From positions 18,511 through 82,510 of IMG/VR virus record IMGVR_UViG_3300007609_001486: 64,000 nt of DNA; one strand, given 5' to 3'. The notes under the pieces are model-generated. The model did no database searches and was not told the origin of the DNA. It saw only the letters and a program-made list of their open reading frames with translations. The translations under genes and the position numbers were made by a program. The DNA is from a virus. Every line of letters starts with the position of its first letter. Position 1 is the first letter of the stretch. Shown one piece after another: positions 34,852 to 53,694 of this stretch.

Positions 34852-36109
34852 ATTTCTTAAACTCTGGATTGATATGTTCGAAAGGTCCCTGCGATCTAGT
34901 TTTATCTAATGCGCGATTAAACTCAATAGTTTCCCGCCATAAATGATGTTGATCAGTGGCTTTTATATATGTTATTACGTCGTTAATTTGGTTAATTGTA
35001 AATTCCAATAACTTACCATTATCTTTGACAAGTTTAAAATTTGGAACTTTTTCTTTAACCTGTTCTAGTCTTTTCACTACTTCTTGTTTTAGATCTTTTG
35101 GTAATACTTGAGCAGAAAGAACCCTAGGATGGTCGACACTTTTAGCATAAAATATTATGCCCAAATCATCTAAGAAATATTCTATCATTTTATCTAAGAC
35201 CATAATGTTATTTACTTGGAATGCAACTGCTCCTACAATACGATTAATATTGGGAATATCTTGCATTACTTTTATATTTTTTATTAGGGTTTCCCAATCA
35301 CCATTTCCTCTTACATATTCATAACTTTTACCTATTCCATCTATGCTAACATTTACAGCGACACTTTTAAATCTAGGCCAGTAATCGTGTATATTCCTGC
35401 CACCTTTTATACCTAAAATCGTCCCATTAGTTGCATATTTAATTTCGATATTTTCTCCGTATGTGGAAAGCATATCTAAGATCTTATAATGGTGCGGGTC
35501 CATGAGAGGCTCGCCTCCGGCAAATTCAACCCTTCGGAAATATGGCAACAACTTTTCAAAACTGTTCCACCAGTTTGTGTTATCTTCAAAATGACCTAAA
35601 TAAGGATTCTTTTTGAGGTTTAAATTATCTACCATGTTAGGTAAGAAAACATCGTCGTCCTTATAGTAACCTTCGATAGAATCCCAATCTTTCCACGAAG
35701 TGCTGTCAACAGGATTGCACATTCTGCACTTTAAATTACATAGATTGTTAATTTTAATTTCAATGGTAGGGATTTCAAAAGGCATTGAGTAATCTTCATT
35801 AAGGTTGTCTAAAGCATTAGGATAAAGATTTATTCTTGACTCTGGAATAACATTCTCTATATGTCGTTGTCGTAAACTTTGTACTCCTTGATCCTCCAAC
35901 ATATAACAGGGTAAACATTCAGGCGGCCTCTCATCATTTAACACCTGCTGTCTGATACGTAGCATATTTTCGTTATTCCAAATTTCTTCTAAACTTTCAT
36001 CTTGAATGTAGCCAACAGGGTGACTGCGGCAGCATATTTTTACTGCGCCGTCCTCTCGGGTAGCAAGTCCAGTAAAAGGGTGCATACAAAATGTACAGGA
36101 TTTTTTCAT
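34844..36109 (-). CDS. Radical SAM protein, type A (421 aa)
   Basis: The N-terminal module has C5-T-F-C8-M-H-P-F, K-I-C26-C27 and P-P-E-C65-L-P-C68-Y, with E-E-I-W-N-N between, as in SPASM domains. The core has C124-x3-C128-x2-C131 (L-C-N-L-K-C-R-M-C-N-P) and E-F-A-G-G-E-P-L near 200, then A-T-N-G-T and S-I-D-G-I. Upstream on the minus strand, GATAAGTA lies five bases before the ATG, a weak version of the late motif at the leaderless spacing seen at 36149 and 46651. Translation-coupled to the type C gene. Confidence 0.88.
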   Translation of the reverse strand: MKKSCTFCMHPFTGLATREDGAVKICCRSHPVGYIQDESLEEIWNNENMLRIRQQVLNDERPPECLPCYMLEDQGVQSLRQRHIENVIPESRINLYPNALDNLNEDYSMPFEIPTIEIKINNLCNLKCRMCNPVDSTSWKDWDSIEGYYKDDDVFLPNMVDNLNLKKNPYLGHFEDNTNWWNSFEKLLPYFRRVEFAGGEPLMDPHHYKILDMLSTYGENIEIKYATNGTILGIKGGRNIHDYWPRFKSVAVNVSIDGIGKSYEYVRGNGDWETLIKNIKVMQDIPNINRIVGAVAFQVNNIMVLDKMIEYFLDDLGIIFYAKSVDHPRVLSAQVLPKDLKQEVVKRLEQVKEKVPNFKLVKDNGKLLEFTINQINDVITYIKATDQHHLWRETIEFNRALDKTRSQGPFEHINPEFKKYV

Positions 36110-36135
36110 AATGTTACTTATCTCATATGGCTAAT

Positions 36136-36143
36136 TATAAATA
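36136..36143 (+). promoter_or_regulatory. T4-type late promoter (TATAAATA), five bases before ATG
   Basis: Exact TATAAATA followed by ATTTT and ATG 36149. With T4 spacing (-13 to -6), +1 is the A of that ATG, so the message would be leaderless. A second in-frame ATG at 36164 would have a 15-nt leader without a Shine-Dalgarno sequence. Confidence 0.65.
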
Positions 36144-36148
36144 ATTTT

Positions 36149-36817
36149 ATGATAACTCCCACTATGTATTCATTAGACGAAAATATTTTACAAGAAGCAG
36201 TCAATTCTTTACCTCAAATAAGTTTTAAACTTTCCTTAAATCACCCTACAGAAGATTTTTTTTATAGTCCATGGGTTATAAAAGACGAATATAAAGGCAC
36301 GGTATGGAACGACGTTTTGAAAAGTTTACCAGAAATGCAGGGAGAAGCTAGATTAATAAAACTAGATCCTGGATTTTGTTATTATGCTCATGCTGATATA
36401 GATGACAGATGGCACTTATCGTTACAAGCCGAACATTCCTTTTTAGTTGACATACAAAATGAAAAACTACATAAAGTACAAGTTGATGGAAAATGGTATT
36501 ATTTCGAAGCAACTAATATTCATAGCGCAACAAACTTTAGTAACAAACCTCGTATTCAATTAGTTGTGAGAAAATTATTGCAAAAAAATAAAATTATAGA
36601 TCCCATATGTGTAAATTTAATTTTAAAAGAGTATAGACATGATTATAGATATCTATTTGATAGCACAGTAAGCCCATGGTTAAATAAAGCTAATAAAACT
36701 GGATATATCTCTAACTTTGAAAAGAAAGATAAATCTGTAAAATTTATAATTTCCGAGTATGCGCTAAGTTCGCTTAAACAAATTTTACCAAAGGAGTTTG
36801 AATTAAGATGTCTGTAA
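36149..36817 (+). CDS. 2OG-Fe(II) oxygenase-like protein (aspartyl hydroxylase type)
   Basis: 222 aa from ATG 36149; ATG 36164 is the alternative. An upstream in-frame start at 36002 lies inside the opposite-strand gene and before the promoter, so it is rejected. A-H-A-D near residue 85 supplies H-x-D, and N-I-H-S-A-T-N-F-S-N-K-P-R supplies the distal His plus the Arg that holds 2-oxoglutarate, the pattern of aspartyl/asparaginyl beta-hydroxylases. The C-terminal 80 residues are an extra helical part. It heads a plus-strand run of five oxygenase-like genes. Substrate unknown. Confidence 0.6.
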   Translation: MITPTMYSLDENILQEAVNSLPQISFKLSLNHPTEDFFYSPWVIKDEYKGTVWNDVLKSLPEMQGEARLIKLDPGFCYYAHADIDDRWHLSLQAEHSFLVDIQNEKLHKVQVDGKWYYFEATNIHSATNFSNKPRIQLVVRKLLQKNKIIDPICVNLILKEYRHDYRYLFDSTVSPWLNKANKTGYISNFEKKDKSVKFIISEYALSSLKQILPKEFELRCL

Positions 36818-37356
36818 GGTTTGTAGGAAATTGTAAGACAGTAAACTGGCAAGAATTAATCGAATCAATAAGCCGTATAGACGGAGACGTAAGAACATAT
36901 GGAGTAAACTTTTATCAAGATTCTAATCAAAATTTTAATGAGATAATAGATTTATGGAAGACTGCAGGATACGATAAAACAGAAACAGTAGAATGGATAA
37001 ATTATTATCCAGGAAAACATTTTGGAACCCATTACGTAACACAATTTGAAGAGTATACTGATACTTTATGTGCACGTGCTTGGATTAGTAAAATACGTCC
37101 TGGGAAGTATGCGCCTTATCATAAAGATATCGATGATAATATAGAAGAATACCTAGCCAGGGGAGATTTAGTACGATATACCGCGCATCCTTGTATTCCT
37201 AAAAAAGGACAAATCTTAATTATAGACGAAACCGTATTACATTTAGAAGAACAAGGAAATGTGTACAAGTGGTCAGATTACTTTGCATGGCATGGCGGCG
37301 GAAATATAAGTTTTGAACCTAAATACTTATTCAATTATCTAGGAGTCAAAAAATGA
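36808..37356 (+). CDS. 2OG-Fe(II) oxygenase-like protein, tandem paralogue 1 (182 aa)
   Basis: Starts with V-R-F-V-G-N and carries A-P-Y-H-K-D-I-D-D (H-x-D) near residue 110. Further on come V-L-H-L-E-E-Q-G-N-V-Y-K-W-S-D and A-W-H-G-G, then K-Y-L-F-N-Y-L-G at the end. The next gene has the same layout. The usual Arg two turns after the distal His is not evident, so 2-oxoglutarate binding is less certain than in the other members. It overlaps the upstream gene by 10 bp and the next by ATGA. A role as a hydroxylase of a pathway intermediate is inferred from the fold-level pattern. Confidence 0.55.
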   Translation: MSVRFVGNCKTVNWQELIESISRIDGDVRTYGVNFYQDSNQNFNEIIDLWKTAGYDKTETVEWINYYPGKHFGTHYVTQFEEYTDTLCARAWISKIRPGKYAPYHKDIDDNIEEYLARGDLVRYTAHPCIPKKGQILIIDETVLHLEEQGNVYKWSDYFAWHGGGNISFEPKYLFNYLGVKK

Positions 37357-37886
37357 GATTTATAGGTAACAGTAGTGAAGTAATTGATTGGGATCAGTAT
37401 GTAAATTTGATCGAATGTGATCAAGGAAGAATTAGGGGAACAGCTCAAAGAGATGATATTCATCATAATCCTAAGGTTGCCGAATTAAAAAATATATGGG
37501 AAGTAGCTGGCTACACAAATAATAATGCTGTTGGCTGGATAGATTACGAAATATCACAGGATATAGTTGACAAATTTGCATTTTGGGCAGGAATGAATCC
37601 AATAGCTGGTTGGATTACTAGTGTTCCGCCAGGCTATTGTGTTCCGTGGCATCCCGACTATACAGATGACGAGGAAAAAATACTTTCTAACGGTGAGGTA
37701 TTTAGATTCACCTGTCATATTGGTAAGCCAAGATGGGGCCAAGTCTTTGTACTAGAAGAGCATGTATTTCATATGGAGTCGCAAGGAAACTCATATCAAT
37801 GGTCGGACTGGCAGGACTGGCACGGCGGATTAAATATGGGGTTACACTCTAAACTCCTCTTTAACTTTTTGGGATATAAGCGTTGA
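37353..37886 (+). CDS. 2OG-Fe(II) oxygenase-like protein, tandem paralogue 2 (177 aa)
   Basis: A duplicate of the preceding gene: M-R-F-I-G-N start, V-P-W-H-P-D-Y-T-D-D for H-x-D near 106, V-F-H-M-E-S-Q-G-N-S-Y-Q-W-S-D, D-W-H-G-G and K-L-L-F-N-F-L-G. The strict conservation of H-x-D and both later His residues between the diverged copies suggests that they form the metal site. ATGA coupling on both sides; the downstream gene begins at a TTG inside the stop codon. Confidence 0.55.
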   Translation: MRFIGNSSEVIDWDQYVNLIECDQGRIRGTAQRDDIHHNPKVAELKNIWEVAGYTNNNAVGWIDYEISQDIVDKFAFWAGMNPIAGWITSVPPGYCVPWHPDYTDDEEKILSNGEVFRFTCHIGKPRWGQVFVLEEHVFHMESQGNSYQWSDWQDWHGGLNMGLHSKLLFNFLGYKR

Positions 37887-38452
37887 AAAATAAATTTTGT
37901 TTCGATTTAAAACTTCCAATTAGCGGACCATTAAATAATTTTAAATGTATATACAGGAACGATGCAGAGCCAGACATTTTCTTCATAGATCATTCTGACG
38001 TAAGCGAAGATTATAAAAATTGGATAAGTGAATGTGGATTAATAATGACATATCCGCCTTTGATTTTTTATACACCCATTGGACATCAAATAGGTGTTCA
38101 CATAGACGGTCCTGGCAAAGTTATGGATAGGGCTTGTATGAACTGGTGCGTACAAGGAGCAGGGAGTCTAATGCACTGGTACGAAGTTAAAGCAGGGTGT
38201 TCTCCATTTGAAGAAACAGAGACACAAGCCGGCACACCATATACACAATACCATCCTAAGGATCTAAATCATCTTCATAGTCAAACTGTTAAATGGCCTA
38301 GTGTTGTTCAAACAGGAATACCCCACAATGTTCATAATAGCACTTGGGAGCCTAGGTGGACAATTAGTTGCGATCTAAGTTTTAAAGATACTCCTGAACA
38401 AGGACTCACAATGTTTCAAGCACAGGAAATATTTTTTAAATGGATGATTTAG
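37883..38452 (+). CDS. 2OG-Fe(II) oxygenase-like protein (189 aa, TTG start)
   Basis: TTG 37883 overlaps the previous TGA (TTGA) and is the only start that keeps the N-terminus. G-V-H-I-D-G-P near residue 72 is H-x-D. P-H-N-V-H-N near 151 gives the distal His, and P-R-W-T-I-S-C-D gives the Arg with a final strand. This fits the aspartyl/asparaginyl beta-hydroxylase-like group. A Trp-Cys rich middle (M-N-W-C-V-Q-G-A-G) may line the substrate pocket. It overlaps the next gene by 13 bp. Confidence 0.6.
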   Translation: MKNKFCFDLKLPISGPLNNFKCIYRNDAEPDIFFIDHSDVSEDYKNWISECGLIMTYPPLIFYTPIGHQIGVHIDGPGKVMDRACMNWCVQGAGSLMHWYEVKAGCSPFEETETQAGTPYTQYHPKDLNHLHSQTVKWPSVVQTGIPHNVHNSTWEPRWTISCDLSFKDTPEQGLTMFQAQEIFFKWMI

Positions 38453-39153
38453 ATATTCAATTTTACAAAGCTAATAAAAATAAAACCTTCAAATTAGAAC
38501 AATTACCGGATGGAACTTATGAGTATCAAGCTATGTGGATTATGGAGCAAAGACACATTGGGTGGTTAGAACTGGAATGCAATCACCCAGTTGAAATCTA
38601 CAATGAATTGGAATATTATCTTCATAGAGGACACGAAACACATGTTGGGTGGAGCAGTGTGTGTTTACATGGGCTTGGAGCTGATAAAATAGCTACTGCT
38701 CCTACATATGGTTATAATGAGTTTACTGCTCCTTACACTTTTACAGATATTTCAACATATTTTCCTAAAACCGTTGAATATTGGAAAAAATTTCCTGCAG
38801 AGCGGTTTACAAGAATACGATTTATGAAACTTGAAGCAGGGGGGAGCATTAGTGTACACAATGACAACTATGAAAATGTACCAGAAGATTTTAATCCTTT
38901 AGATGGTATACTGCCTATTAATGTTGCAATAGTTCATCCTGATAATTGCGATATGATTATAGAAGATTGCGGGTCAGTGCCTTTTACTTCTGGCAAAGTT
39001 TTTCTAATTAACGTAGCAAAAAATCACATGGTAGTAAATAACTCCAACAAAGATAGAATACACCTTATATCAAACATTATTTTAGGAAATAAACGAAGTG
39101 AATTTTGTAAATTACTGGTAAGAAGTTATGAAAAATGTTATAACCTTCAATAA
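38440..39153 (+). CDS. Aspartyl/asparaginyl beta-hydroxylase-like oxygenase (237 aa)
   Basis: R-I-R-F-M-K-L-E-A-G-G-S-I-S-V-H-N-D near residues 127-144 contains the H-x-D of the family. I-N-V-A-I-V-H-P-D and G-K-V-F-L-I-N follow, then K-N-H-M-V-V-N-N-S-N-K-D-R-I-H-L-I with distal His and Arg in the usual spacing. This is the best match in the window to the beta-hydroxylase fold. It would hydroxylate, at the cost of O2 and 2-oxoglutarate, an Asp/Asn-like or other substrate that cannot be named. Overlaps on both sides. Confidence 0.7.
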   Translation: MDDLDIQFYKANKNKTFKLEQLPDGTYEYQAMWIMEQRHIGWLELECNHPVEIYNELEYYLHRGHETHVGWSSVCLHGLGADKIATAPTYGYNEFTAPYTFTDISTYFPKTVEYWKKFPAERFTRIRFMKLEAGGSISVHNDNYENVPEDFNPLDGILPINVAIVHPDNCDMIIEDCGSVPFTSGKVFLINVAKNHMVVNNSNKDRIHLISNIILGNKRSEFCKLLVRSYEKCYNLQ

Positions 39154-40540
39154 AACATCCCAAGAAATAGTATTTTGTATTGTAGATAACACTGCAAAAA
39201 TAAAACATGATTGGACCAGAGAAATTATTAAAAACTTATCTGATTTTGTCTTATCGAATATAATACAAAAAGGCTATACTGTATTACAGGGTGTTTCTGA
39301 GGAAGCATTGTTAAGAGAAAGTGCGTCAAAGTATAAACATGCTGTAGTTATATCCACCGGAACAGAGTTTTTAAATGGAGATAATTTTTTTAAAGCTATT
39401 GAAAAGGCAACTTTTCAAGATTATTTTATACAAGGTCATGTTGCTGATAGAAAGGATGGTTACTATGAACTACACGATCAATGTTATTTAATTAATTTAA
39501 GTATCTATAAGAAGTTAGGTTATCCTTCAATTGGTAGCTTTTCTTATTACGATTCACATGAACAAATAGAACCACATAGAAGTGATGAAAACATTCACGA
39601 TGATTATACGCCAGTGTGGATAAAACCGGGCTCATCAAGGCGGAGATACGAGCATAAGTGGCATGGATGGAATATATTATCAATTGCATTAGATAATAAT
39701 TTACCTGTAATAGTATTCAATGAAGATATAAGAAATAATAAAAAATTTTATTATCCTGATTATGAACCTTCATTTCAACTGGCTCATGAGTACTTGTATG
39801 GCAAGCAAATTATAAGTAGCCAGGCTTTCTTTTATCCTTTCAACACTGAACAATACAATACTTCGAATGTAGATTCTATAAATCAGTTAGTAACACAGGC
39901 AAGTGGCCTTAATTGGATCGATTACTTAATTAATAATAATTATTCTAAAGGAACAATTGTAAATTTTGTAGACAATAATACATTTGCATTAGAAACAATG
40001 AAATATATCACTGAATGGAACGGCGAAGATTATCCCCAAATGCTTGAAGACTACGTGCTATCTAGAAGTAGTTTTATGAAGGTATCAAAAAATAATAGAT
40101 TAGCAAATATGGATGATCCTTTAACTACATGTTGGGAATATTTTCTAGAACAACATCCTAATTGGAAGGATACGTGGCAAGATATCAAACATAAGGTACA
40201 ATTTAAATTCACTCATGCAGACTTAGTCCTTAATAAATCACTACCGATTGAACATTGGTTAGAGGAAAAAACAAACACACTTATTAATTTAAGTCATATT
40301 TTTAATTATGATCCAGTTGCTCCATTTATTCCTCTTCAATTGCGTGTAAATAATGAGAATAATCTTATAAAGAAGATTAGACAATATATGCCTGATGCAA
40401 CTATTATATTTAGCGCAAGATCTGCAGAAGGTTTTTTTGATTCGTCACCTAACCATTATGTATGCCAAGCAAGTAAAATGCCTTTGGTTACCATAAAGGA
40501 TTTGACTTTCCCCACATGGCGTTATGGGGAGTGGTTATGA
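39128..40540 (+). CDS. Unknown 470-aa protein of the oxygenase island
   Basis: It overlaps the preceding oxygenase by 26 bp and shares ATGA with the SDR gene, so it is co-translated. The first 230 residues show alternating strands and helices with S-T-G-T-E-F-L-N-G-D and D-Q-C-Y-L-I-N-L-S-I-Y, a pattern reminiscent of GT-A-like nucleotide-sugar folds, but I see no clear DxD. H-K-W-H-G-W-N and P-H-R-S-D-E are His-rich loops. The C-terminal half has no recognised motif. It is soluble, with no signal peptide. Function unknown. Confidence 0.5.
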   Translation: MKNVITFNKTSQEIVFCIVDNTAKIKHDWTREIIKNLSDFVLSNIIQKGYTVLQGVSEEALLRESASKYKHAVVISTGTEFLNGDNFFKAIEKATFQDYFIQGHVADRKDGYYELHDQCYLINLSIYKKLGYPSIGSFSYYDSHEQIEPHRSDENIHDDYTPVWIKPGSSRRRYEHKWHGWNILSIALDNNLPVIVFNEDIRNNKKFYYPDYEPSFQLAHEYLYGKQIISSQAFFYPFNTEQYNTSNVDSINQLVTQASGLNWIDYLINNNYSKGTIVNFVDNNTFALETMKYITEWNGEDYPQMLEDYVLSRSSFMKVSKNNRLANMDDPLTTCWEYFLEQHPNWKDTWQDIKHKVQFKFTHADLVLNKSLPIEHWLEEKTNTLINLSHIFNYDPVAPFIPLQLRVNNENNLIKKIRQYMPDATIIFSARSAEGFFDSSPNHYVCQASKMPLVTIKDLTFPTWRYGEWL

Positions 40541-41130
40541 AGATAGCAATTACGGGGCACACAAGCGGTATAGGTAAAGGTATATATACCTTTTATAGAC
40601 GTAGAGCAGTTGAAGTGAAAGGATATAGTTTAGATAATGGCTATAATATTAATGAATACGAATCTATTCTTAAAGATAGTGCAGATTGTAACATTTTTAT
40701 AAACAATGCCTATAGTCATTATAAGCAAAGTGAGATAATTTCTACTTGGGGCGAAATGCATAAAAATTATAAACATTTAATTATTAGTACAAGTAGTATA
40801 GCTGCAGAGCCGCTATTAGAAATAGAAAAAATATTTCCCCATCTCGTACCATACGGCGAAGAAAAATATGCTATTAATAAAGCAAGTTGGTTTTTAAATC
40901 ACAGCGGCTCTAGATGTAAATCCAGCGTTATTATGCCAGGGGTAGTAGAAACTAATTTTTATAATCCCTACGACACAGAAGACGAAAACGGAATAGAATT
41001 ATATAATCAAGTCATGAATACCAATAGTATAATCACTGTTGACGATTTAGTTAAGACTGTAGATTTTATTATTCAAAGTTGGAACGGAAGAAACTTTATA
41101 GCAAGTATGACGGTGTTAAATGCTTATTAA
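40537..41130 (+). CDS. Short-chain dehydrogenase/reductase (SDR)
   Basis: 197 aa from ATG 40537 (ATGA overlap). I-A-I-T-G-H-T-S-G-I-G-K-G at residues 3-15 is the classical TGxxxGIG NAD(P) loop. I-F-I-N-N-A-Y matches the NNAG region, S-T-S-S-I-A-A gives the catalytic Ser, and Y-A-I-N-K is the YxxxK pair. V-I-M-P-G-V-V-E-T follows, as in SDR motif P-G. All catalytic residues are present, so it is probably an active oxidoreductase for an alcohol or ketone of the pathway. Confidence 0.8.
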   Translation: MKIAITGHTSGIGKGIYTFYRRRAVEVKGYSLDNGYNINEYESILKDSADCNIFINNAYSHYKQSEIISTWGEMHKNYKHLIISTSSIAAEPLLEIEKIFPHLVPYGEEKYAINKASWFLNHSGSRCKSSVIMPGVVETNFYNPYDTEDENGIELYNQVMNTNSIITVDDLVKTVDFIIQSWNGRNFIASMTVLNAY

Positions 41131-41539
41131 AGATTGGATAGATAGAATTTCAAAACCGCAAGAATTACTAGGAGGATATTCAGTGTGTCCTTATTCTAGG
41201 CATGCGCAGTATGAAATAGTACAAGTATATGGGCGTAATATAGTTGTTCCAAATGCAGACTTTGACTTAATAATTTATATACTTTCGGATAACTTTTCTC
41301 AAATACAAGTTGAAAGTATAGCAAAGGAGTATAATCTACTGTACAAGGAATTGGTTTTCTTACCAGATCCTAAAGATCGATATACAGAAATCAATGGCGT
41401 AAAAACAAATAATGGTGAACAGAATCTAATACTTTGCCAACCAAGAGCTAAATTAAGAAAAGCAAGAGAAAATCTGTCTAAAACAGATTATTATAGTTTC
41501 TGGAGTGAAGATTATCTTCGGGAGATCTTAGATACATGA
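41120..41539 (+). CDS. Unknown 139-aa protein with a CPYSR motif
   Basis: It overlaps both neighbours and lies between an SDR and the amidinotransferase. S-V-C-P-Y-S-R-H-A near residue 22 is striking and could be a reactive Cys or a metal contact. The rest alternates strands and helices (Y-I-L-S-D-N-F-S-Q-I-Q) and ends in a charged helix. C-P-[YF] motifs occur in small uncharacterised bacterial proteins, but I cannot name the family with confidence. The single Cys motif and the context suggest a helper of the neighbouring enzyme. Confidence 0.5.
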   Translation: MLIKDWIDRISKPQELLGGYSVCPYSRHAQYEIVQVYGRNIVVPNADFDLIIYILSDNFSQIQVESIAKEYNLLYKELVFLPDPKDRYTEINGVKTNNGEQNLILCQPRAKLRKARENLSKTDYYSFWSEDYLREILDT

Positions 41540-42609
41540 CATGCTGGACAGAGTACGATCCGTTAAAGGAAATAATTGTAGGAGATTGTAATCAGCCCGG
41601 CGATTTTGATTGGTTCCTTGACGAAAGAGTAAAATCAAAATTCAATCTAATACTAGAAGAAACAAAAGAAGATTTACAAAATCTTAGCGAGTATCTATCC
41701 GGTTTAGGTATTCGTGTGCATAGGCCTAAACCTACAAAGTTTGAAAGTCGAGTCAGTTTAGGAAGTTTTACAATCCCTAATCCTGCAAGTCCTATAGTTC
41801 CCAGGGATCAGTATTTGGCATACAATAATATTATCATACAAACTTATACAAGTATGGTAGATAGATATTTAGATAGTGCAACATATTACCACATCTTTAA
41901 AGAACAATTTGATAAGGGCATTAATTGGATTAGTATGCCACCGCCTGTGTTAATAGATATAGGAGAAACAGAAAAGTGGTGGATAAAGGGCGAAGAAATT
42001 TATCATGATATATTAAAAGATAGATTGCTATGGCATACAGCAACCATGTATAAATTAGGTGATACATTGATTACAAACACAAAAGGTCCTGGTAATTATA
42101 ACGGTTTAGAATGGATGACAAGGAATCTTCCTAATATTAAAATTATCGAAAATACACAAACGCATCAGCAAGGATATGGGCATATTGATCACGGCTGGTT
42201 TATGACAGACGACGAAACAGTATTTTGTGTTGATAAAAGTTGGGTTCCATTAGTGCTCCTTGACAAAGAGATTATTGAGTTGCATAAATTTTTTGATCCT
42301 TTTGACGATCAAAAATTCTTTATGGATTACAATAGTACTGGCGGAAAATACAGTGTAGATTGGTTAGATAAATGGTTAAACGGCTGGAAGGGTTACGCAC
42401 AGGAATGTTTTTTTGATACCAACGTTTTAGTCCTAGATAAGGAAAATATACTATTCACAAACGAACAACCTCGTATATTTAAATTAATGGAAAATAGAGG
42501 AATCAACTGTCACGTAGTTCCGCAAAGACACAGTTTCTTCTGGGAGGGCGGCGTTCATTGCTTAACTTTAGATTTGGTCAGGGATGGCAGTTGTAGATCG
42601 GTTATATGA
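41536..42609 (+). CDS. Glycine-amidinotransferase-family protein
   Basis: 357 aa. E-Y-D-P-L-K-E-I-I-V-G at the start is typical of the amidinotransferase/pentein fold. Y-G-H-I-D-H-G-W near residue 216 offers the catalytic His, and W-E-G-G-V-H-C-L-T-L-D near the end carries the nucleophilic Cys (C342). N-Y-N-G-L-E-W and N-E-Q-P also fit the fold. The reaction expected is amidino transfer from arginine to an amine through a Cys-amidino intermediate; hydrolase relatives exist. It is ATGA-coupled upstream and overlaps the convergent aminotransferase by 42 bp. The substrate is unknown but presumably a pathway amine. Confidence 0.85.
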   Translation: MTCWTEYDPLKEIIVGDCNQPGDFDWFLDERVKSKFNLILEETKEDLQNLSEYLSGLGIRVHRPKPTKFESRVSLGSFTIPNPASPIVPRDQYLAYNNIIIQTYTSMVDRYLDSATYYHIFKEQFDKGINWISMPPPVLIDIGETEKWWIKGEEIYHDILKDRLLWHTATMYKLGDTLITNTKGPGNYNGLEWMTRNLPNIKIIENTQTHQQGYGHIDHGWFMTDDETVFCVDKSWVPLVLLDKEIIELHKFFDPFDDQKFFMDYNSTGGKYSVDWLDKWLNGWKGYAQECFFDTNVLVLDKENILFTNEQPRIFKLMENRGINCHVVPQRHSFFWEGGVHCLTLDLVRDGSCRSVI

Positions 42610-43812
42610 TGCTAGTGCACTTATAAGTCTCTTTGATAACTCTATAAAATAATCATCAGTTGCAGATAATGGGATAATTATCAAAAGTCCATCCCCTGCT
42701 TCGTTAAACATACCGCTGCTCAATCCAAACTTTTTAAAATGACTTTCCAGGGTATCTTGATTTTCTAAGTAATTTTCATTTAACAGATTAAGATTAAATA
42801 CCAGTCCGTGGTTGTTAAAGCCTTTTATAAGATTCTCTTGTTTTAGTTTTTCGAATAAAGAAACGGCTGAATTTTTTATCGCAGAATGATTTTTTAGAAT
42901 TTGTTCTTTTTCTAGAATATCCATATATTCTAAAACACTGTAGATGCCACTTAGGCTGAAACTATATGAGAATCCATGCAGTAACGGCAAATTCATTATT
43001 GTTTGGTATATAATGTCATTTACAAGTGTTGCACTCAATGGATAAAAGCCACCTGTAAACCCTTTACCCATTGTGAATATATCAGGCTGTATCAAAGTTT
43101 CCCCATGTTCGTTTTTCCATCCAAACATGTTTCCGGTTTTTCCTCCGCACATTGCAATATCGTCAACTATCAAAATCACATCGTTTTCAGTGCAGACACG
43201 TCTAAGTTTTTGCCAAAATTCCTGTGTCACAGGCTTCAGTCCATCCTGCCAGCTACAAGTCTCAATGACAACACATAGTGTGTTACTCCAGTCTCTGTCC
43301 AGGTCTGTTTCCTGTCTTCTCAAAGTAACACAATTACCTTCTCTGCCATATATATGATGCATGTCTCTGGTATCTGCAATACTGCTACTTAAGAATGTGC
43401 TACCGTGATAACTGTTTTCAAAACCTATTATCTCTTTCCTGTCTTGATTTTTTGCAACATTATATAGATGTGCAACTCTAATTGCACCCTCTATGGCATC
43501 ACTGCCCGATAAGCTGAAAATACTACGATACCCGCCGCTTAAGTCAAACAGTTTAGATGCAAGTGTCTGAATGACTGAGTTAGAAGTTTTGAACTCGCCG
43601 CTACAAAAAGGTGTGTCTTTTATTTTTTCGCCTACCTTATCAACAATATCAGTTCTATCAAACCCTAGTGTAAAACACCCGCAGTTCCCCATACTGAGAT
43701 CAATAAAATTAACATTGTCCTCATAAAAACCAAAAGACCAGTATTTTTCTAAAAGTCTATATTCTTCTAGATTATCGTTTATTGCGTAAGGAAAAAGTGC
43801 TCGGGATATCAT
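42568..43812 (-). CDS. Class III PLP aminotransferase
   Basis: 414 aa. L-S-G-S-D-A-I-E-G-A-I-R near residue 105 and S-Y-H-G-S-T are cofactor-phosphate contacts. I-L-I-V-D-D-I-A near 219 carries the Asp that pairs with the pyridine nitrogen. M-G-K-G-F-T-G-G-F-Y-P near 255 has the Schiff-base Lys. This fits omega-amino acid/DAPA-type aminotransferases, which move an amino group to a terminal carbon of a keto or aldehyde substrate. It heads no operon: it is the last gene of the minus island running from 46574. Together with the convergent amidinotransferase it could make and then guanylate an amine. Confidence 0.9.
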   Translation of the reverse strand: MISRALFPYAINDNLEEYRLLEKYWSFGFYEDNVNFIDLSMGNCGCFTLGFDRTDIVDKVGEKIKDTPFCSGEFKTSNSVIQTLASKLFDLSGGYRSIFSLSGSDAIEGAIRVAHLYNVAKNQDRKEIIGFENSYHGSTFLSSSIADTRDMHHIYGREGNCVTLRRQETDLDRDWSNTLCVVIETCSWQDGLKPVTQEFWQKLRRVCTENDVILIVDDIAMCGGKTGNMFGWKNEHGETLIQPDIFTMGKGFTGGFYPLSATLVNDIIYQTIMNLPLLHGFSYSFSLSGIYSVLEYMDILEKEQILKNHSAIKNSAVSLFEKLKQENLIKGFNNHGLVFNLNLLNENYLENQDTLESHFKKFGLSSGMFNEAGDGLLIIIPLSATDDYFIELSKRLISALASYNRSTTAIPDQI

Positions 43813-43837
43813 AATTTTTTACTAATATACTTTTTGC

Positions 43838-44446
43838 TTATATTACACTTAAGGTTAAAGATATTCTTTTACTACCTGGATTTATATTTTCTACACTATG
43901 GATTTTATTTGCTGGTAATAAATGCCATCTGTCTAATGGCACTTTTATTTCTTCCTTCTTTGTAACTTTATCATAAGGAATAAACATTTGTGGGTGTATC
44001 CAGGTATTATCCTTGTAGTCATTTAATTCATAAAATATTAACGAAACATCTCCGCCTGTTTGTATCAGATAATTATAAGCCTTGGATCTTAATTCGTCTA
44101 TGTGAGGAGGTATAATCGATCCTTCTTCCATTACTTGAATATTAATGGAATCGTATTTGATTGGAATATGTGTATTAACCCATTTACTTATAGTGTCAGA
44201 TACATCTATAAAACTATATTTTACTAGTCCGGGAAATCTTTCACGTGCTTCTTGTCCGCTGTACCCTAGTTTAGATTTGTTAATATTAGGATCATATGCA
44301 TTTTCTACTAAGTTTAGAATCTCCTCAGAAGAACTTATAAGAAGTGTGTCCAAACGAGTATTTTCGCTTTTAGCTACTACATCAAATATTTCTTGTTTTA
44401 TTTCTTCAGGCATTAAGGGATATGCAGGATATTTTAAGTATGCCAT
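43838..44446 (-). CDS. 2OG-Fe(II) oxygenase-like protein (202 aa)
   Basis: I-I-P-P-H-I-D-E-L near residue 117 is H-x-D. N-K-I-H-S-V-E-N-I-N-P-G-S-K-R-I-S near the end has the distal His and the Arg that binds 2-oxoglutarate. This is the jelly-roll dioxygenase pattern. The final residues (L-T-L-S-V-I) form the last strand, so the protein is complete. It lies 8 bp after the halogenase stop and 25 bp before the aminotransferase start on the minus strand, in a probable four-gene operon. Confidence 0.65.
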   Translation of the reverse strand: MAYLKYPAYPLMPEEIKQEIFDVVAKSENTRLDTLLISSSEEILNLVENAYDPNINKSKLGYSGQEARERFPGLVKYSFIDVSDTISKWVNTHIPIKYDSINIQVMEEGSIIPPHIDELRSKAYNYLIQTGGDVSLIFYELNDYKDNTWIHPQMFIPYDKVTKKEEIKVPLDRWHLLPANKIHSVENINPGSKRISLTLSVI

Positions 44447-44454
44447 TATTTGTT

Positions 44455-45939
44455 TTATATACCTTCCTTGTTCGTCCGAAAATAACCATGCAGGACAGCA
44501 TCTGTATTAGTCTTACAACTAGACATATTTCGAATCTGTATTTTTTTCCATGCCTCAAAATCTTTAATAATTTCCACTTCTCTTCCTGTGATATGATTTT
44601 TTGCAACCTGTTTATTTATAAAGCCCAACCCTGCAAGAATCTGATTCCATGCATTATATCCTATACTATTTTCTTTGTTAGGAACATCAGATGCTGTAAG
44701 TAAACGAGTCTTAGAAATGTCAATAATATTTTTAACGAAATCTGTAGCAATGTCAGATTTCTTTATGTAATCCCAAAACGGAGATCCTGATTTTCCCCCT
44801 AAATAATGCAAAATTATAAAATCTTTGATTTCGTCATACATTTCTGTAATTTCTTCGTTATATTTTTTGAAGTCATTTGAACCTATATAATCTACAAATT
44901 TTTGTATTTGAATTATTGTTGCATGTATGCTCGTGGCCTCTAACGGTTCAATAAAAGCACTAGCTAACCCTAATGCCAAACAATTTTTCCGCCAAGGCGC
45001 ATCTAATCTTCCTGAATCAAACTTAATTTGTTTTATAGGGGTTATTTCGTGTCCTAATAAGGCTTCGATTTCATTTTGTGCTTCATTAAAGGTTATAAAC
45101 TTGTCACAAAATACGTAGCCGCATCCGAACCTTTCTGCAGTTGGTATCTGCCACATCCAGCCCGCACTTAAGGCTTTTGAAATGGTCAAGGGTTTAGGCC
45201 AAACTGGCGGAACATAGTCTAAAACAAATGGCATAGCACTGTTCATAAGTAGGTGTCTGTTATAACTTACCCATTTTGCACCTAGGCTCTTCATTAAAGT
45301 TTGCGCAAATCCTGTGCAATCTATAAAGAAATCCCCAGGTATAGTCATATTATTAGATAACTTTAATGAGTCTATAGCGTTATTTTCATTATGGATTATT
45401 TTTTCAACTGTTGCATCAATAACTGAACCGCCCATAGAGAGAACACGCTTTTTAAAAAATTTGCCAACTTTACTTCCGTCAAAATGAAAACTTTGTCCGG
45501 TGATCCTTAATATTTCTGATTCGTCGTTCTTAATTAGAGATCGATCTTGGTCGATAAACATTCCTAATTTACTTACTGAATGAATGTATTCGTCATTTGC
45601 AATTAAAAAAGCAAGTCTATCTGTAATTTTGTTATCATTGTCTAAATTTAAATCTAAGGGGTTATAATAGCACCTATGTTGATTCGACCAATTTTCGTGT
45701 TTGACTCCTACTTTAAACGTGGCATCCGTTTCCTTAATAAAATCCTTTATGTCAATACCAAAGTCTATGTCCTGATTACCTATAATGCTTCCTAATATAT
45801 GTGTGCCACCCTCGCCTGCTCCGATAATACCTATACTACTACTTTCGATAATTGTTACGTTATAAGTAGGATTAGTTTTTAAAATATAAAAGGCTGCTAT
45901 CCATCCCGCAGTACCGCCTCCTACAATTACTAATTTCAT
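44455..45939 (-). CDS. Flavin-dependent tryptophan-halogenase-family protein
   Basis: 494 aa. V-I-V-G-G-G-T-A-G-W at residues 4-13 is the FAD loop. T-F-K-V-G-V holds K76, the lysine that carries the hypohalous equivalent in PrnA-type enzymes. G-W-M-W-Q-I-P near 265 is the W-x-W-x-I-P signature of flavin-dependent halogenases, and A-F-I-E-P-L-E-A-T is the second flavin motif. All key marks of an active halogenase are present. No flavin reductase is coded nearby, so a host reductase would have to supply FADH2. ATGA overlap with the oxygenase upstream. Whether the substrate is free tryptophan or something else cannot be told. Confidence 0.85.
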   Translation of the reverse strand: MKLVIVGGGTAGWIAAFYILKTNPTYNVTIIESSSIGIIGAGEGGTHILGSIIGNQDIDFGIDIKDFIKETDATFKVGVKHENWSNQHRCYYNPLDLNLDNDNKITDRLAFLIANDEYIHSVSKLGMFIDQDRSLIKNDESEILRITGQSFHFDGSKVGKFFKKRVLSMGGSVIDATVEKIIHNENNAIDSLKLSNNMTIPGDFFIDCTGFAQTLMKSLGAKWVSYNRHLLMNSAMPFVLDYVPPVWPKPLTISKALSAGWMWQIPTAERFGCGYVFCDKFITFNEAQNEIEALLGHEITPIKQIKFDSGRLDAPWRKNCLALGLASAFIEPLEATSIHATIIQIQKFVDYIGSNDFKKYNEEITEMYDEIKDFIILHYLGGKSGSPFWDYIKKSDIATDFVKNIIDISKTRLLTASDVPNKENSIGYNAWNQILAGLGFINKQVAKNHITGREVEIIKDFEAWKKIQIRNMSSCKTNTDAVLHGYFRTNKEGI

Positions 45940-46574
45940 ATAATTGACCTCTGTATATAAGAAGATACAGGATAATTGCCTGTTGCTCCTACATTGAAGG
46001 ACACTGCATATCTAGGTAAGTTTGTTTCATTTATTTTTGTTTTATGTCTTAACCATCCGGGAAAGATGAGCACATCGCCGGATTGTATCGAAACTGTCTC
46101 CTCTATGTCATATTGTACGCCTTCGGGCCCTTGCCATCCAAATGGCTGGAGGCTAGCAACAAGGTGATTAGGGTTTTCGAAAATTATATCTCCCATACCT
46201 GGATCCATCTTAATATACATTACACCACTCAGTAAATATGGTGTATGGTTGTGTGCAATGATGCCACTATTCTTACATGTTTTGTTAATCCACATTTCAC
46301 ATATTTGAGGAGTGAGTCCGTTGTAAAATTTATATTCGGCCCAACATTTTTTTATCATCGGTTCAAGTTGTAAGGTAATATTTTCAAATGCCGGGTGATT
46401 ATGAAATGTATTCAACGAGTTGTATGTTGTATATGTAAATGGGCCTACATCGTTGTGAGATGCAGACGGCTTTGACCATTCTATCTCAACTTCGTGTTGA
46501 ACTTTAGCAAAGGCTTCGTCTAAGCCTAATATTTTATCTCTAAAAATTTTTACAGGAAACAGTGATTTGAACAT
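45936..46574 (-). CDS. 2OG-Fe(II) oxygenase (putative oxygenase of the PF13759 kind)
   Basis: 212 aa. N-S-G-I-I-A-H-N-H-T-P near residue 110, then S-G-V-M-Y-I, is the iron-binding region of this family. I-F-P-G-W-L-R-H-K near 182 gives the distal His, and L-P-R-Y-A-V-S-F-N gives the Arg strand. The family is common in marine T4-like phages and its substrates are unknown. It is the first gene of the minus island that includes the halogenase and aminotransferase, with a late-type motif upstream on the minus strand. Confidence 0.75.
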   Translation of the reverse strand: MFKSLFPVKIFRDKILGLDEAFAKVQHEVEIEWSKPSASHNDVGPFTYTTYNSLNTFHNHPAFENITLQLEPMIKKCWAEYKFYNGLTPQICEMWINKTCKNSGIIAHNHTPYLLSGVMYIKMDPGMGDIIFENPNHLVASLQPFGWQGPEGVQYDIEETVSIQSGDVLIFPGWLRHKTKINETNLPRYAVSFNVGATGNYPVSSYIQRSII

Positions 46575-46601
46575 AATTTTTATACTGATGTTATTTAAAT
46601 T

Positions 46602-46609
46602 TATTTATC
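46602..46609 (-). promoter_or_regulatory. Late promoter motif (GATAAATA) for the minus-strand halogenase operon
   Basis: On the minus strand GATAAATA lies 27 nt from the ATG at 46574. With T4 spacing this leaves a leader of about 22 nt. It is AT-rich and has no strong Shine-Dalgarno sequence. Confidence 0.45.
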
Positions 46610-46637
46610 ATAAAATATGATACCAAAAAAAAAATTT

Positions 46638-46645
46638 TATAAATA
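46638..46645 (+). promoter_or_regulatory. T4-type late promoter (TATAAATA), five bases before ATG
   Basis: Exact TATAAATA followed by TCACT and ATG 46651, the same geometry as at 36136. The predicted +1 is the A of the ATG. An A-rich tract (46625-46634) precedes it. Confidence 0.65.
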
Positions 46646-46650
46646 TCACT

Positions 46651-47265
46651 ATGGAAAGAACCTCAAAAAAATATTTTCAATACGACGCAAATTTTGCCTC
46701 TATTTATAATGATGTTAATTTTGACGATATTTGCTATTACTTTGTAAAGCAGTTTGAATTAACACATGCATATCCTACAGGATCGTTAGTAGACCTCTGT
46801 TGTGGTACAGGTCAAATTGCAAACATTTTTAAAACAAGATTCGAAGACCTGGAAGTAGTTGGATATGATTTGTCGCAAAACATGTTAGAATTTGCAAATT
46901 ATAATAATATTACTTTTAGAAACGACTCTATATTATCTATAAATGAAAAATTTGACAATATTGTATGCAATAATGCATATCATCATTTTGATGACATAAG
47001 TCTGTTTTGGGATACAATCCACAGGATTTCTCATGAAAGCACAAACTTTTTAATATCTGATAATGTAAGACCAGACACTGAAGCGCAGCTTAACAATATT
47101 GTGACAGGTGTCCTAGGAAATAATTCTCCTCTCAGTGAGTCATTTGAGTTAGCTTTATCTTCAAGTTATTCGATAGAGGAACTAAATGATCATGCTAAAG
47201 ATTATAATCTTATAGTTCATGATACTCCTGTAGCTGATCTTAAAATTTTTTTTATACATAATTAA
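46651..47265 (+). CDS. Class I SAM-dependent methyltransferase
   Basis: 204 aa. L-V-D-L-C-C-G-T-G-Q-I-A near residues 46-57 is a clear motif I. V-V-G-Y-D-L-S-Q-N-M-L is motif II with the ribose-binding Asp. N-I-V-C-N-N-A-Y-H-H-F is motif IV, as in ubiquinone/menaquinone-type and small-molecule methyltransferases. The second Cys in the glycine loop is unusual. It is 20 bp upstream of a second halogenase-like gene, suggesting methylation of the same product. Possibly leaderless start (see promoter). Confidence 0.85.
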   Translation: MERTSKKYFQYDANFASIYNDVNFDDICYYFVKQFELTHAYPTGSLVDLCCGTGQIANIFKTRFEDLEVVGYDLSQNMLEFANYNNITFRNDSILSINEKFDNIVCNNAYHHFDDISLFWDTIHRISHESTNFLISDNVRPDTEAQLNNIVTGVLGNNSPLSESFELALSSSYSIEELNDHAKDYNLIVHDTPVADLKIFFIHN

Positions 47266-47285
47266 TTTTTATTATAGGAAAATAG

Positions 47286-48833
47286 ATGAAAATCGTGATT
47301 CTCGGTGGCGGCACAGCAGGTTGGATGGCAGCATCATATCTATCTAAACGCTTCCGAGATTTTAATTTAACAGTAATAGAAAGTCCAAATATTCCTCGAA
47401 TCGGAGTGGGAGAAAGCGTAACTCCTCATGTTGCACAATTCTTTACTGATCTTGGTATAGATACGCATACTTGGATGAAAGATACAGGAAGTGTATATAA
47501 GTGGGCCAACAAGTTTATTAACTGGCATAATGGAAATGACTATGAGTATTTTAGTTTTTCATATCCTACAAACACTGAAATGTTATATAAAGACATAGAT
47601 AAACCCTTTTCTATTGACCAGGTATATGGTGATAAGGATAATGAATTAAGTACGGATTATTTGTTAAAGTTATACAATGACGGGCATATAGATAAGTTCG
47701 ATAGGTATTTTAACAGCCAATTTTATTACATGGAAAATAATGTTGCTCCATTTGAAGGTACTACCCGGCTTCTAAATGTTCCATTTAGCGGTGCACAACA
47801 TATTGATGCAGAGAAAGCAGCTGATTTTTTAAAAGATAATGTTGCTCTTAGAAATGGAGTTGAACATCTTCAACATGACGTAGTTGATATTATAGTCGAC
47901 GGAGAAAATATAAAATATCTTGTCTTAGAAAGTGGAGAGCAAGTTGTAGCAGATCTATTCTTAGATGCAACTGGATTTAAACGCATCTTAACCAAAGCAT
48001 TAGGATGGACAACCGTAAAATATAAAAACAATCCTATAAACAGGGCATGGGTTTGCCCACTAGAATATGAAAACAAAGAAACTGAGTTACTCAATTATAC
48101 CCAATCCATTGCGCAAAACCATGGTTGGCTTTTTAAAATAGGACTAAATCACAGAATGGGCAGTGGCTATTGTTTTAGTAGTGAGTTTACAGATGATGAT
48201 GATGCGCTAAAAGATTATATGTCTATAACAAAAAATCACAAGGCTGAACCTAGATTAATTAAGTGGACACCTGAAAGATTAAAATATTCTGCAAAGGGTA
48301 ACACTGTTGCAATAGGATTAAGTTGTGGGTTTGTAGAACCAATGGAAGCCAATGCTTTGTATACTATTATTAATAGTATTGTTAGATTAGCTGAGACTAT
48401 TGAGTCATGTCGGAGTATAAACCTAATAGATTATACTGAGTATAATAATATAATTGCCCATGGCATTGATGATATTTCTGATTTTATACTCGTACATTAT
48501 ACATTAAGTAATAGAAAGACTAATGCTTTTTGGAACGAAATGTCTGCTTTAGGTGTCAGAAATAATCATATTGACCTTATGTACGAAAAATATAGGAGTA
48601 AGTTTAACACAATGTCTGCCGCCTTACAAGGTTATACAATGTTTCCACAGTACATGTGGGCACAACTAGCTACTTATTTGAAAATAGATACCTCCACATG
48701 GTATGACTTAAAAGAAGATGTTACATATGAAATTGCAAAACTGTACTTTAAAAATCTAGAACACAAGCATCGTCTTATTAGTTCAACTAGAATGAATAAT
48801 TCTCAGTGGTTATCTAAATATATTTTTCGATAA
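47286..48833 (+). CDS. Tryptophan-halogenase-like flavoprotein, divergent
   Basis: 515 aa. V-I-L-G-G-G-T-A-G-W-M-A at residues 4-15 and G-V-G-E-S-V-T-P are FAD-binding features. V-Y-K-W-A-N-K-F places K72 near the halogenase lysine. G-F-V-E-P-M-E-A-N-A is the second flavin motif. The W-x-W-x-I-P signature is degenerate (G-W-L-F-K-I-G), so the enzyme may be a halogenase with a different pocket or a monooxygenase-like relative. AGGAAA lies before the ATG. The 3' end overlaps the convergent gene by 31 bp. Compare the intact family member on the minus strand at 44455. Confidence 0.75.
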   Translation: MKIVILGGGTAGWMAASYLSKRFRDFNLTVIESPNIPRIGVGESVTPHVAQFFTDLGIDTHTWMKDTGSVYKWANKFINWHNGNDYEYFSFSYPTNTEMLYKDIDKPFSIDQVYGDKDNELSTDYLLKLYNDGHIDKFDRYFNSQFYYMENNVAPFEGTTRLLNVPFSGAQHIDAEKAADFLKDNVALRNGVEHLQHDVVDIIVDGENIKYLVLESGEQVVADLFLDATGFKRILTKALGWTTVKYKNNPINRAWVCPLEYENKETELLNYTQSIAQNHGWLFKIGLNHRMGSGYCFSSEFTDDDDALKDYMSITKNHKAEPRLIKWTPERLKYSAKGNTVAIGLSCGFVEPMEANALYTIINSIVRLAETIESCRSINLIDYTEYNNIIAHGIDDISDFILVHYTLSNRKTNAFWNEMSALGVRNNHIDLMYEKYRSKFNTMSAALQGYTMFPQYMWAQLATYLKIDTSTWYDLKEDVTYEIAKLYFKNLEHKHRLISSTRMNNSQWLSKYIFR

Positions 48834-49474
48834 ATATCAGGCAACGGATCTTCAGGCCATTTTACATATTCTGTAAGACTGTGTTTATTAAGAATAGAAA
48901 AATCTACTTTACCGTCTGGCCAAACACTATTAATAAATTTAGATCTTTCTTCGTTTAGAATAGGTCTATAAAGATTTATATCAATAGGCTGTTCTTCGTA
49001 ATCACAAGTAGTATAAAATGCAAATGCTTTTAATTTATCTTCTTTAATAAAGTGATAACACGGATACATAGTTATTTTATACACTTCGTTTATTTTTATA
49101 TCTAAAACTATCTGTTGTAGTTGTTCCTTCCAATCAGGTAAAATATTTGATAAATCAGCACCATTTACTATTGTTTGCTCGCAACATTCTATATTCCATT
49201 CTATGTAGATTTCTCTTTTGCTGGTATCTACATCTATTAAATTAGCACACCATGGATATTTATTAAATTTTTTAAGATATTTTATTTCTCTTGTAAAACA
49301 ATCGTTAATTAATTCGTTGCTTACCGGTTTATTCCTAAATTTACTATCGGGATCGAATCTCATGCAGAGAATTTTTTGGTCTAAACTTACTAAAGGTTCG
49401 TATAATGCTCCAGTTTTCCAGCGTTTGTTGCTCTGATCTGTCACATAGTAGTGTTGCCAATCAGTAGTGTTCAA
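48803..49474 (-). CDS. Unknown 223-aa protein, paralogue of the 50297 gene
   Basis: It shares with the 231-aa protein at 50297 the run I-L-P-D-W-[KQ]-E-Q-[LM], then Y-K-[IF]-[TS]-[ML]-[YH]-P, a H/Y-F-I strand and a L-K-[AS] strand, in the same order and spacing. The H-P / L-K layout vaguely recalls the catalytic end of small kinase-like folds, but no H-R-D or D-F-G is present, so I do not assign a kinase. It is co-transcribed with the upstream oxygenase-like gene (14-bp overlap). Confidence 0.55.
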   Translation of the reverse strand: MNTTDWQHYYVTDQSNKRWKTGALYEPLVSLDQKILCMRFDPDSKFRNKPVSNELINDCFTREIKYLKKFNKYPWCANLIDVDTSKREIYIEWNIECCEQTIVNGADLSNILPDWKEQLQQIVLDIKINEVYKITMYPCYHFIKEDKLKAFAFYTTCDYEEQPIDINLYRPILNEERSKFINSVWPDGKVDFSILNKHSLTEYVKWPEDPLPDIYRKIYLDNH

Positions 49475-50270
49475 TATGATCTATACCTATGGTCTTCCTA
49501 AATTCTTTTGTAAACGTGCAATCGATTCGTAATCCGTATTCTTGTTCTTTAGAACCTTCTCCGCCGTGCCAGTCTTGATCGTTCCAGAAAGCTGCATTAC
49601 AGTTTAGATAGTATTTGTTCTCATTTTCTGGATCCCATATGTAGAATCCGCGTTTAGTTCGATATCGAATATGTATAAATTCGTTGTTATGTGGAGAATA
49701 ACCTTGATTGTCACCGTTCTTACCATCAAGATCTCTGTGTTCAAATGCATGCCCGTTATGATCGCAATGAAAGAATATAACACGCCCGATACTGTCAATA
49801 ACATTTTCCTCAATAAGATTCTCTACCCATTTGACTACGCCTGGAAAATGTTCCTGTTCTTCGGTGGGGTTGCGTTCAGCATTGCGTTCGTCCCAACTAC
49901 CTTCTTCCCAAAGAAAATAGTATATGTAAGGATCGTTTGCACCCAACGCACCTTTGAGATATCTTGTAAATAAGTTCCTTTGACGATAATCTTTGAAGTC
50001 TTGAGGAAATATTGTTTGTCCATGTATTTTAATTGGGTCATTTTCCGGCAATGCTTGATATTCTGCAAATGCCTTATATATAGGCTTCCAGTTCAAAGTA
50101 TAACTCATATCATTTAAGTCAAAGCCTGGACTCATCCAAGTCCCTTCTTTGGCATATTCCCTCGCCAGTGCAAATCCTTTACATATTTCAGGATGAAGAT
50201 TTTTGAAACCCTCAATGTCGAGATGTGGATCTAAATTTATATACGGCCTACCGCCAATTCCTTTAAACAT
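49461..50270 (-). CDS. 2OG-Fe(II) oxygenase-like protein (269 aa)
   Basis: The ATG at 50270 is preferred over a TTG at 50285. H-A-F-E-H-R-D-L-D near residue 182 provides H-x-D. N-D-Q-D-W-H-G-G near 236 gives the distal His, and L-R-I-D-C-T-F-T gives the Arg strand. The N-terminal 150 residues form an added helical domain with aromatic clusters (Y-I-Y-Y-F-L-W-E-E-G-S-W). On the minus strand GATAACTA lies five bases upstream of the ATG, again at the leaderless spacing. It diverges from the 50297 gene across about 26 bp. Confidence 0.65.
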   Translation of the reverse strand: MFKGIGGRPYINLDPHLDIEGFKNLHPEICKGFALAREYAKEGTWMSPGFDLNDMSYTLNWKPIYKAFAEYQALPENDPIKIHGQTIFPQDFKDYRQRNLFTRYLKGALGANDPYIYYFLWEEGSWDERNAERNPTEEQEHFPGVVKWVENLIEENVIDSIGRVIFFHCDHNGHAFEHRDLDGKNGDNQGYSPHNNEFIHIRYRTKRGFYIWDPENENKYYLNCNAAFWNDQDWHGGEGSKEQEYGLRIDCTFTKEFRKTIGIDHIEHY

Positions 50271-50296
50271 ATTAATAGTTATCAAATAAGTACCAT

Positions 50297-50992: not shown

Positions 50993-51539
50993 AGTTGTGC
51001 CTTTTTCAGATGATCTAGATCTAGAATTATTCTACAAGAAAGCCAAAGAAAAAGGATTCGAAAATAATTCAACTAAACATATGTTAGTTGACTGTTTTAA
51101 AAATGAAAGAAAATCCCAGACTTGGATACTTTACTACGATAATAGTCCTATCGGATCTGTGGCAGCCCATTCATTTGACGAAATGGGGAAAAATTGCTAT
51201 AGAATAGCGGCCAGAACCTGTGCTTTTACAGATGAAATACCTACTCCTACGTTAAGAACAAGAAATCAAATAGTAACGCAACAGCACGTAACAGGACAAT
51301 TCCTTATACCTGCTTGTATTGAATGGGCAGGCAGGAAAAATAATCTTTATATTACTTCAAATAATCTTGAAGGCGGCAGTCAGCGTCTGGTACATACAGT
51401 ATATTTTCCAGCAATGGTAAAAACGGGGCAAGCTGAACATATTTGTGATATGTTATACAGAGGTGTTATGCAAAGCGTATGGAAACTAAATGTCGATAAG
51501 TACTATGAAGTATTAGGAAAAAATCCAAGATGGCAATAA
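50985..51539 (+). CDS. Possible GNAT-like acyltransferase (184 aa)
   Basis: ATG 50985 gives the usual 8-bp overlap; an upstream in-frame start inside the previous gene is rejected. Strands around W-I-L-Y-Y-D-N-S-P-I-G-S-V-A-A-H-S-F, then Y-R-I-A-A-R-T-C, resemble the central sheet of GNAT acetyltransferases, but the R-x-x-G-x-G/A CoA loop is not clear. R-T-R-N-Q-I-V-T-Q-Q-H and A-C-I-E-W-A follow. I cannot name a substrate. The call is tentative. Confidence 0.4.
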   Translation: MYKVVPFSDDLDLELFYKKAKEKGFENNSTKHMLVDCFKNERKSQTWILYYDNSPIGSVAAHSFDEMGKNCYRIAARTCAFTDEIPTPTLRTRNQIVTQQHVTGQFLIPACIEWAGRKNNLYITSNNLEGGSQRLVHTVYFPAMVKTGQAEHICDMLYRGVMQSVWKLNVDKYYEVLGKNPRWQ

Positions 51540-53684: not shown

Positions 53685-53694
53685 TAAATAACAT

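Follow-up and report, generated by a model that had tools for sequence, protein, structure and literature searches.

A linked class III aminotransferase and amidinotransferase homologue with an altered catalytic triad in aquatic phages

The amidinotransferases closest to the protein described here are HsvA of Erwinia amylovora (5wpi), StrB1, SxtG and AGAT; in the human AGAT the catalytic residues are Asp254, His303 and Cys407 (PMC3684758). Phage amidinotransferases have been known since 2010, when they were reported with radical S-adenosylmethionine (SAM) neighbours in the Campylobacter phages CP220 and CPt10 (Timms et al. 2010, PMC2853527), and one viral gene list includes a “glycine amidinotransferase” (PMC8226683). 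Pelagimyophages and cyanomyophages carry a host recognition cluster, a large variable island that adjoins the genes for baseplate and tail fibres and contains glycosyltransferases and radical-SAM cassettes (PMC7029224; PMC3037559), and a PrnA-type halogenase and 2-oxoglutarate (2OG) oxygenases are described in cyanophages (PMC3037559). Here we analyse a 64,000-nucleotide stretch, hereafter the window (positions 18,511 to 82,510 of the 82.5-kb IMG/VR virus record IMGVR_UViG_3300007609_001486), in which an amidinotransferase homologue (AMT) and a class III aminotransferase (AT) are encoded side by side. We give an even chance to the reading that AT and AMT, as a module of two enzymes conserved in large aquatic T4-like phages, act in one pathway that leads from an amine to a guanidine. 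The conserved module and its altered catalytic triad are new: we found neither described in the literature covered, which included few subscription papers, and no AT–AMT pair is mentioned in the available portions of the host recognition cluster accounts (PMC7029224; PMC3037559).

As the sequence-only reading of this DNA had proposed, the two open reading frames converge and overlap tail to tail.

41536..42609, + strand: AMT, AGAT/StrB/HsvA-fold amidinotransferase homologue, 357 aa; C342, H216, D91 and D218 kept; H167 at the AGAT Asp254 position; extra clade histidine H219
42568..43812, − strand: AT, class III pyridoxal phosphate (PLP) aminotransferase, 414 aa; K250, D217, Y135-H136-G137 and S102-G103-S104 kept
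42568..42609: AMT/AT tail-to-tail overlap, 42 nt (20–47 nt in convergent relatives)

Fold and active site of the amidinotransferase homologue

The AMT protein of the window has no Pfam or NCBIfam match, and PF02274 is touched by 4 of 58 relatives (best 0.0025). Against solved structures, phmmer recovered HsvA (5wpi, 8.5e-23), StrB1 (1bwd, 6.8e-18), SxtG (6u1r, 9.6e-15) and AGAT (1jdw, 4e-14), so that HsvA, a polyamine amidinotransferase, is the nearest. An AlphaFold model built from the 58 relatives reached a predicted local distance difference test score (pLDDT) of 88.6; an earlier model from 12 sequences (pLDDT 63) was set aside as poor. The model superimposes on these four amidinotransferases with Z scores of 30.6–32.2 over ~300 residues, compared with ~23 or less for deiminases and ~20 for DDAH. 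As modelled, AMT is an amidinotransferase-fold pentein and not a hydrolase-type pentein. It shares with the four enzymes the whole-chain fold, the catalytic Cys and His, and the HID, HC and R-D motifs. In contrast, its identity to the HsvA group is ~23–26%, its gene setting is different, and it has a histidine, His167, at the position of the triad Asp.

In the alignment, AMT His216 and Cys342 correspond to AGAT His303 and Cys407. Both are present in 84/84 aquatic-phage sequences; thus neither the catalytic His nor the nucleophile Cys, which the sequence-only reading had located in the G-G-V-H-C motif, is missing. Asp91 and Asp218 are also kept and align with AGAT Asp170 and Asp305, which we take to be active-site positions. 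The third triad residue is not kept. Where AGAT has Asp254, AMT has His167, in the stretch LWHTATM, which aligns with LFDAADF in HsvA and with similar stretches in StrB1 and SxtG. The triad Asp is present in the alignments of all three and also in CP220 (locus L021), which is 26% identical to the window AMT. The description of AMT as intact, correct for Cys342 and His216, was therefore too strong, as it overlooked that the Asp254 position is His in every aquatic-phage copy (84/84). Because the triad Asp is replaced, we treat AMT as a family homologue and not as a proven amidinotransferase. The “glycine amidinotransferase” of S-SCSM2R was also considered for the triad comparison and was rejected, because it is shorter and its divergence prevents alignment at the triad Asp.

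A second histidine, His219, lies three residues past His216 and is as constant as His167; HsvA has Thr at this site. The AMT sequences with invariant His167 span 45–84% identity, a range that argues for a selected change and not decay. Since the two histidines are invariant, they probably re-tune the active site, through an altered acid-base pair with His216 or a change of donor or acceptor, and would not kill activity. Alternatively, the Asp-to-His change could mean that AMT is no longer an arginine amidinotransferase and instead acts as a hydrolase, as a binding protein or as a catalyst that uses another donor, with AT tied to that reaction. The clade-specific invariance of His167 (84/84) and His219 at the active site fits this possibility, as does the fact that pentein hydrolases have the same fold. 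We nonetheless consider it rather unlikely, as the model is far nearer to amidinotransferases (Z 31–32) than to hydrolases (23 or less), and AMT retains the Cys, the His and the two other Asp residues of the active site.

When patterns derived from alignments A1 and A2 were run against 84,980 species genomes in two scans, no cellular AMT relatives were found, though these scans rely on short conserved peptides and distant relatives may escape them. Within those limits, the result suggests that the AMT clade is a phage-specific branch; it also means that there is no cellular operon from which the substrate could be read. Both genes are under purifying selection, with ratios of nonsynonymous to synonymous change (pN/pS) against locus L001 of ~0.13 for AMT and ~0.28 for AT, computed with the overlap left out and with synonymous sites near saturation.

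The aminotransferase and its linkage to AMT

AT matches PF00202 with E=1.2e-41 and 143.2 bits (cut-off 30.5), and its closest solved relatives are BioA and the putrescine and omega-transaminases, with which it shares this family and the PLP-binding residues. The residues examined were the PLP Lys, the Asp to the pyridine N, and the phosphate-binding and stacking positions. Among 53 sequences, K250, D217, H136 and G103 occur in 53, S102 in 52, Y135 in 51 and S104 in 50. Judged by these residues, the PLP site is intact, and the earlier assignment of a full PLP aminotransferase holds. However, unlike these transaminases, AT falls under every NCBIfam equivalog cut-off among the models shown, so its substrate cannot be read from family models, and its phage relatives (36–66% identity to the window AT) form a family of their own.

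These matches bear on the possibility that AT is an ornithine aminotransferase-like enzyme that removes the by-product ornithine and so pulls AMT forward, the acceptor amine not coming from AT. PF00202 includes ornithine and acetylornithine aminotransferases, and ornithine is named among the product inhibitors or regulators of the amidinotransferase class (PMC3684758). AT, however, reaches no ornithine or acetylornithine transaminase equivalog cut-off, and its best matches are BioA and the omega-transaminases, which makes this role distinctly unlikely.

The distribution of the pair was examined in IMG/VR from both sides. A search with the AMT alignment found 179 relatives, and one with the AT alignment, in which AMT was not used, also found 179 (a scan with the single AT sequence had given no match); the best 80 were kept from each. 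Because the loci retained are the ones that resemble the window most, the linkage fractions are not frequencies for all phages. Loci found through AT carry AMT in 71/80 cases, always within 1–3 genes, and of the nine loci that lack it, several are short or lie at a contig end. Loci found through AMT carry AT in 54/83 cases, 49 of these within two genes. The 65 non-redundant pairs include 28 that are convergent and adjacent, 20 that are co-directional with one gene between (AT-X-AMT) and 12 that are co-directional and adjacent (AT-AMT). Gene X falls into a single cluster, c23, in the first set's AT-X-AMT loci, and the c23 member that was tested is a PF13640 2OG oxygenase. Pairwise identities of AT and AMT across the 65 pairs correlate with r=0.84, a value that reflects shared ancestry in part.

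A functional link between AT and AMT is very probable, since it survives three gene orders and two orientations; the persistence of the pairing through changes in order and orientation is good evidence of a common pathway. The idea of a joint amine-to-guanidine pair thus stands as far as true family homologues and a very probable functional link are concerned, whereas the convergent layout on which attention had fallen is not essential: in other phages the pair is co-directional, often with one gene between (a 2OG-Fe(II) oxygenase where identified). The suggestion that neither is a usual phage gene is apt for isolate genomes, with six AMT matches among 50,697 records, but not for aquatic metagenomic phages, in which 179 matches were confirmed for each. 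A mosaic island and the AMT loci that lack AT (29/83) might indicate chance neighbours in a gene-dense region with no common pathway. The recovery of AMT in 71/80 loci anchored on AT alone, in three arrangements, strongly disfavours chance, and we regard this explanation as highly improbable.

Two subsets of loci differ from the window. At L002:8001-10268 the AMT is 82% identical to the window copy and the AT at the same position only 44%; this AT was apparently replaced by a divergent homologue, with the arrangement retained. In L058-type loci, which lack AT, an AMT homologue lies near a PTPS-family (PF01242) gene and, by eye, a GTP-cyclohydrolase-like gene. A link to 7-deazaguanine DNA modification was considered on account of these genes and rejected, as they belong to the L058-type subgroup and neither was seen beside the window pair.

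A candidate guanidine-forming pathway

In the preferred reading, in which AT and AMT act in one pathway, neighbouring oxygenases would make a carbonyl intermediate, and AT, with PLP, would place an amino group on the carbonyl carbon. AMT would then shift an amidino group from arginine, via Cys342, to the amine made by AT, yielding a guanidino-bearing product and ornithine. The product could be a small molecule or could decorate a surface or the virion, and the island next to the tail-fibre genes would make it. We tentatively propose, further, that a phage-specific amidinotransferase branch with a Cys-His-His site, together with a dedicated aminotransferase, puts guanidino groups on a product of the phage's own, be it virion, host surface or small molecule. 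We found no account in the literature of guanidine chemistry of this kind forming a conserved module in phages.

Three points weigh against this reading. First, His occupies the Asp254 position in 84/84 window and IMG/VR sequences and in 65/65 non-redundant pair-bearing loci, so arginine-dependent transfer is not to be assumed. Second, AT was not seen within the stretch examined in 29/83 AMT loci, and AMT may thus act without AT or with another amine source. Third, dense islands make adjacency likelier than in an average genome.

The same enzymes could serve other routes. AMT might amidinate a polyamine, giving an agmatine-like product or guanidino-polyamine, with AT as a putrescine-type transaminase and an S-adenosylmethionine decarboxylase supplying aminopropyl groups. 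Consistent with this, the best solved structure is the polyamine amidinotransferase HsvA, and AMT and HsvA have in common a WVP stretch downstream of HID (W236 in 65/65), at a position presumably corresponding to AGAT Arg322. A decarboxylase gene (PF02675, 3.9e-16) is present in the window and in 27/83 AMT loci. Its distance from AMT varies, however; it lies more than 100 kb away in G008, and none was found in G004–G007. In addition, no aminopropyltransferase was recognised and AMT–HsvA identity is just ~25%, and on balance we find this branch unlikely.

Production of guanidinoacetate by AMT and its conversion to creatine by a nearby methyltransferase, as auxiliary metabolism, is very improbable. 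Guanidinoacetate methyltransferase is reported to be virus-enriched in ocean data (PMC11360552), and a methyltransferase is encoded close by (46651-47265). Against this, AGAT Asp254 and the Arg322 region are not retained in AMT, and the conserved partner is the aminotransferase and not the methyltransferase, whose cluster (MT204) occurs in 11 loci.

If the enzymes of the preferred AT–AMT pathway are active, a guanidine-forming pathway would be encoded by common aquatic phages themselves, and a catalytic triad that normally includes Asp would function with His in its place. The pair would also open a route, through two genes, to the chemistry of the large and so far unexplained enzyme islands at the tail genes of T4-like marine phages, and both families are amenable to expression and assay.

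The enzyme island and neighbouring genes

The pair lies where two gene runs meet, within a long enzyme island.

12537..56947: enzyme island downstream of the tail-fibre genes; glycosyltransferase-like, radical-SAM, 2OG, halogenase and PP-loop-like genes
36149..41130, + strand: overlapping genes before u139 and AMT; two Asp_Arg_Hydrox proteins, three oxygenase-like proteins, a 470-aa protein and a short-chain dehydrogenase/reductase (SDR)-like protein
36149-36817 and 38440-39153, + strand: the two Asp_Arg_Hydrox proteins
41120..41539, + strand: u139 (phrog_10325), adjoining AMT; invariant Cys in a VCPF/Y motif
43838..44446, − strand: u202, directly upstream of AT; conserved HxD...H...R (H115, D117, H183, R194), 2OG-Fe(II) oxygenase-like by motif only
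44455..45939, − strand: tryptophan halogenase family protein (PF04820), in the AT run
45936..46574, − strand: 2OG-FeII_Oxy_5 oxygenase, in the AT run
52663..53019, − strand: S-adenosylmethionine decarboxylase, in the same island as AMT and AT

AMT is the last of nine overlapping plus-strand genes that start at ~36149; the three oxygenase-like proteins of this run were labelled by eye and have no Pfam match. Converging on it is the minus-strand run 46574-42568, which encodes the 2OG oxygenase, the tryptophan-halogenase-family protein and u202, with AT last. Upstream of the island are a baseplate hub gene, gp25-like and gp6-like genes and a giant structural protein gene, followed by the tail-fibre genes. 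Past the tail fibres come ~45 kb of enzymes, among them radical-SAM proteins with twitch/SPASM domains, PF05118 hydroxylases, 2OG oxygenases, two halogenase-family proteins and the S-adenosylmethionine decarboxylase. No tRNA genes were found in the window. This setting resembles the T4-like host recognition cluster (PMC7029224): the island adjoins the baseplate gp25/gp6 and tail-fibre genes on one side, and the far, gp14-side boundary was not seen in this record. Two long records with related loci, G002 and G006 (the latter reached through its AT alone), carry a T4-type gp23 capsid gene. CP220 and CPt10 likewise have a phage amidinotransferase beside several radical-SAM and sugar-transferase-like genes, but no class III aminotransferase is annotated in the 21-kb stretch examined.

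Where u139 occurs in AMT loci, it usually adjoins AMT (40/49). Guanidines are substrates for hydroxylation by the YqcI/YcgG heme enzymes (PMC12866846). Members of the DUF6875 family also are heme enzymes, and a link between this family and heme-dependent oxidation of tryptophan was made recently (PMC13307353). We considered u139 as a guanidine N-hydroxylase and rejected it: the best DUF6875 match, 23.4 bits, is below the cut-off of 24.5 (3/10 relatives matched, the window protein not at all), and in cultured cyanophages u139 (T4-like cluster 824) sits beside gp25/gp6, and no AMT turned up in Syn1, S-PM2 or the S-RIM phages.

About a dozen radical-SAM-type proteins, several of the N-terminal twitch type, are encoded at 17000-36000 and 51530-56947. 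The two tryptophan-halogenase-family proteins are at 44455-45939 (−) and 47286-48833 (+); by eye, WxWxIP is kept in the first and not in the second. At the other end of the window, the gene at 31-3936 (+) is probably incomplete. An open frame of the same PHROG family (from G000:8368, 3381 aa) runs off the end of the upstream stretch, which suggests that the two are parts of a single giant structural protein of ~4,700 aa.
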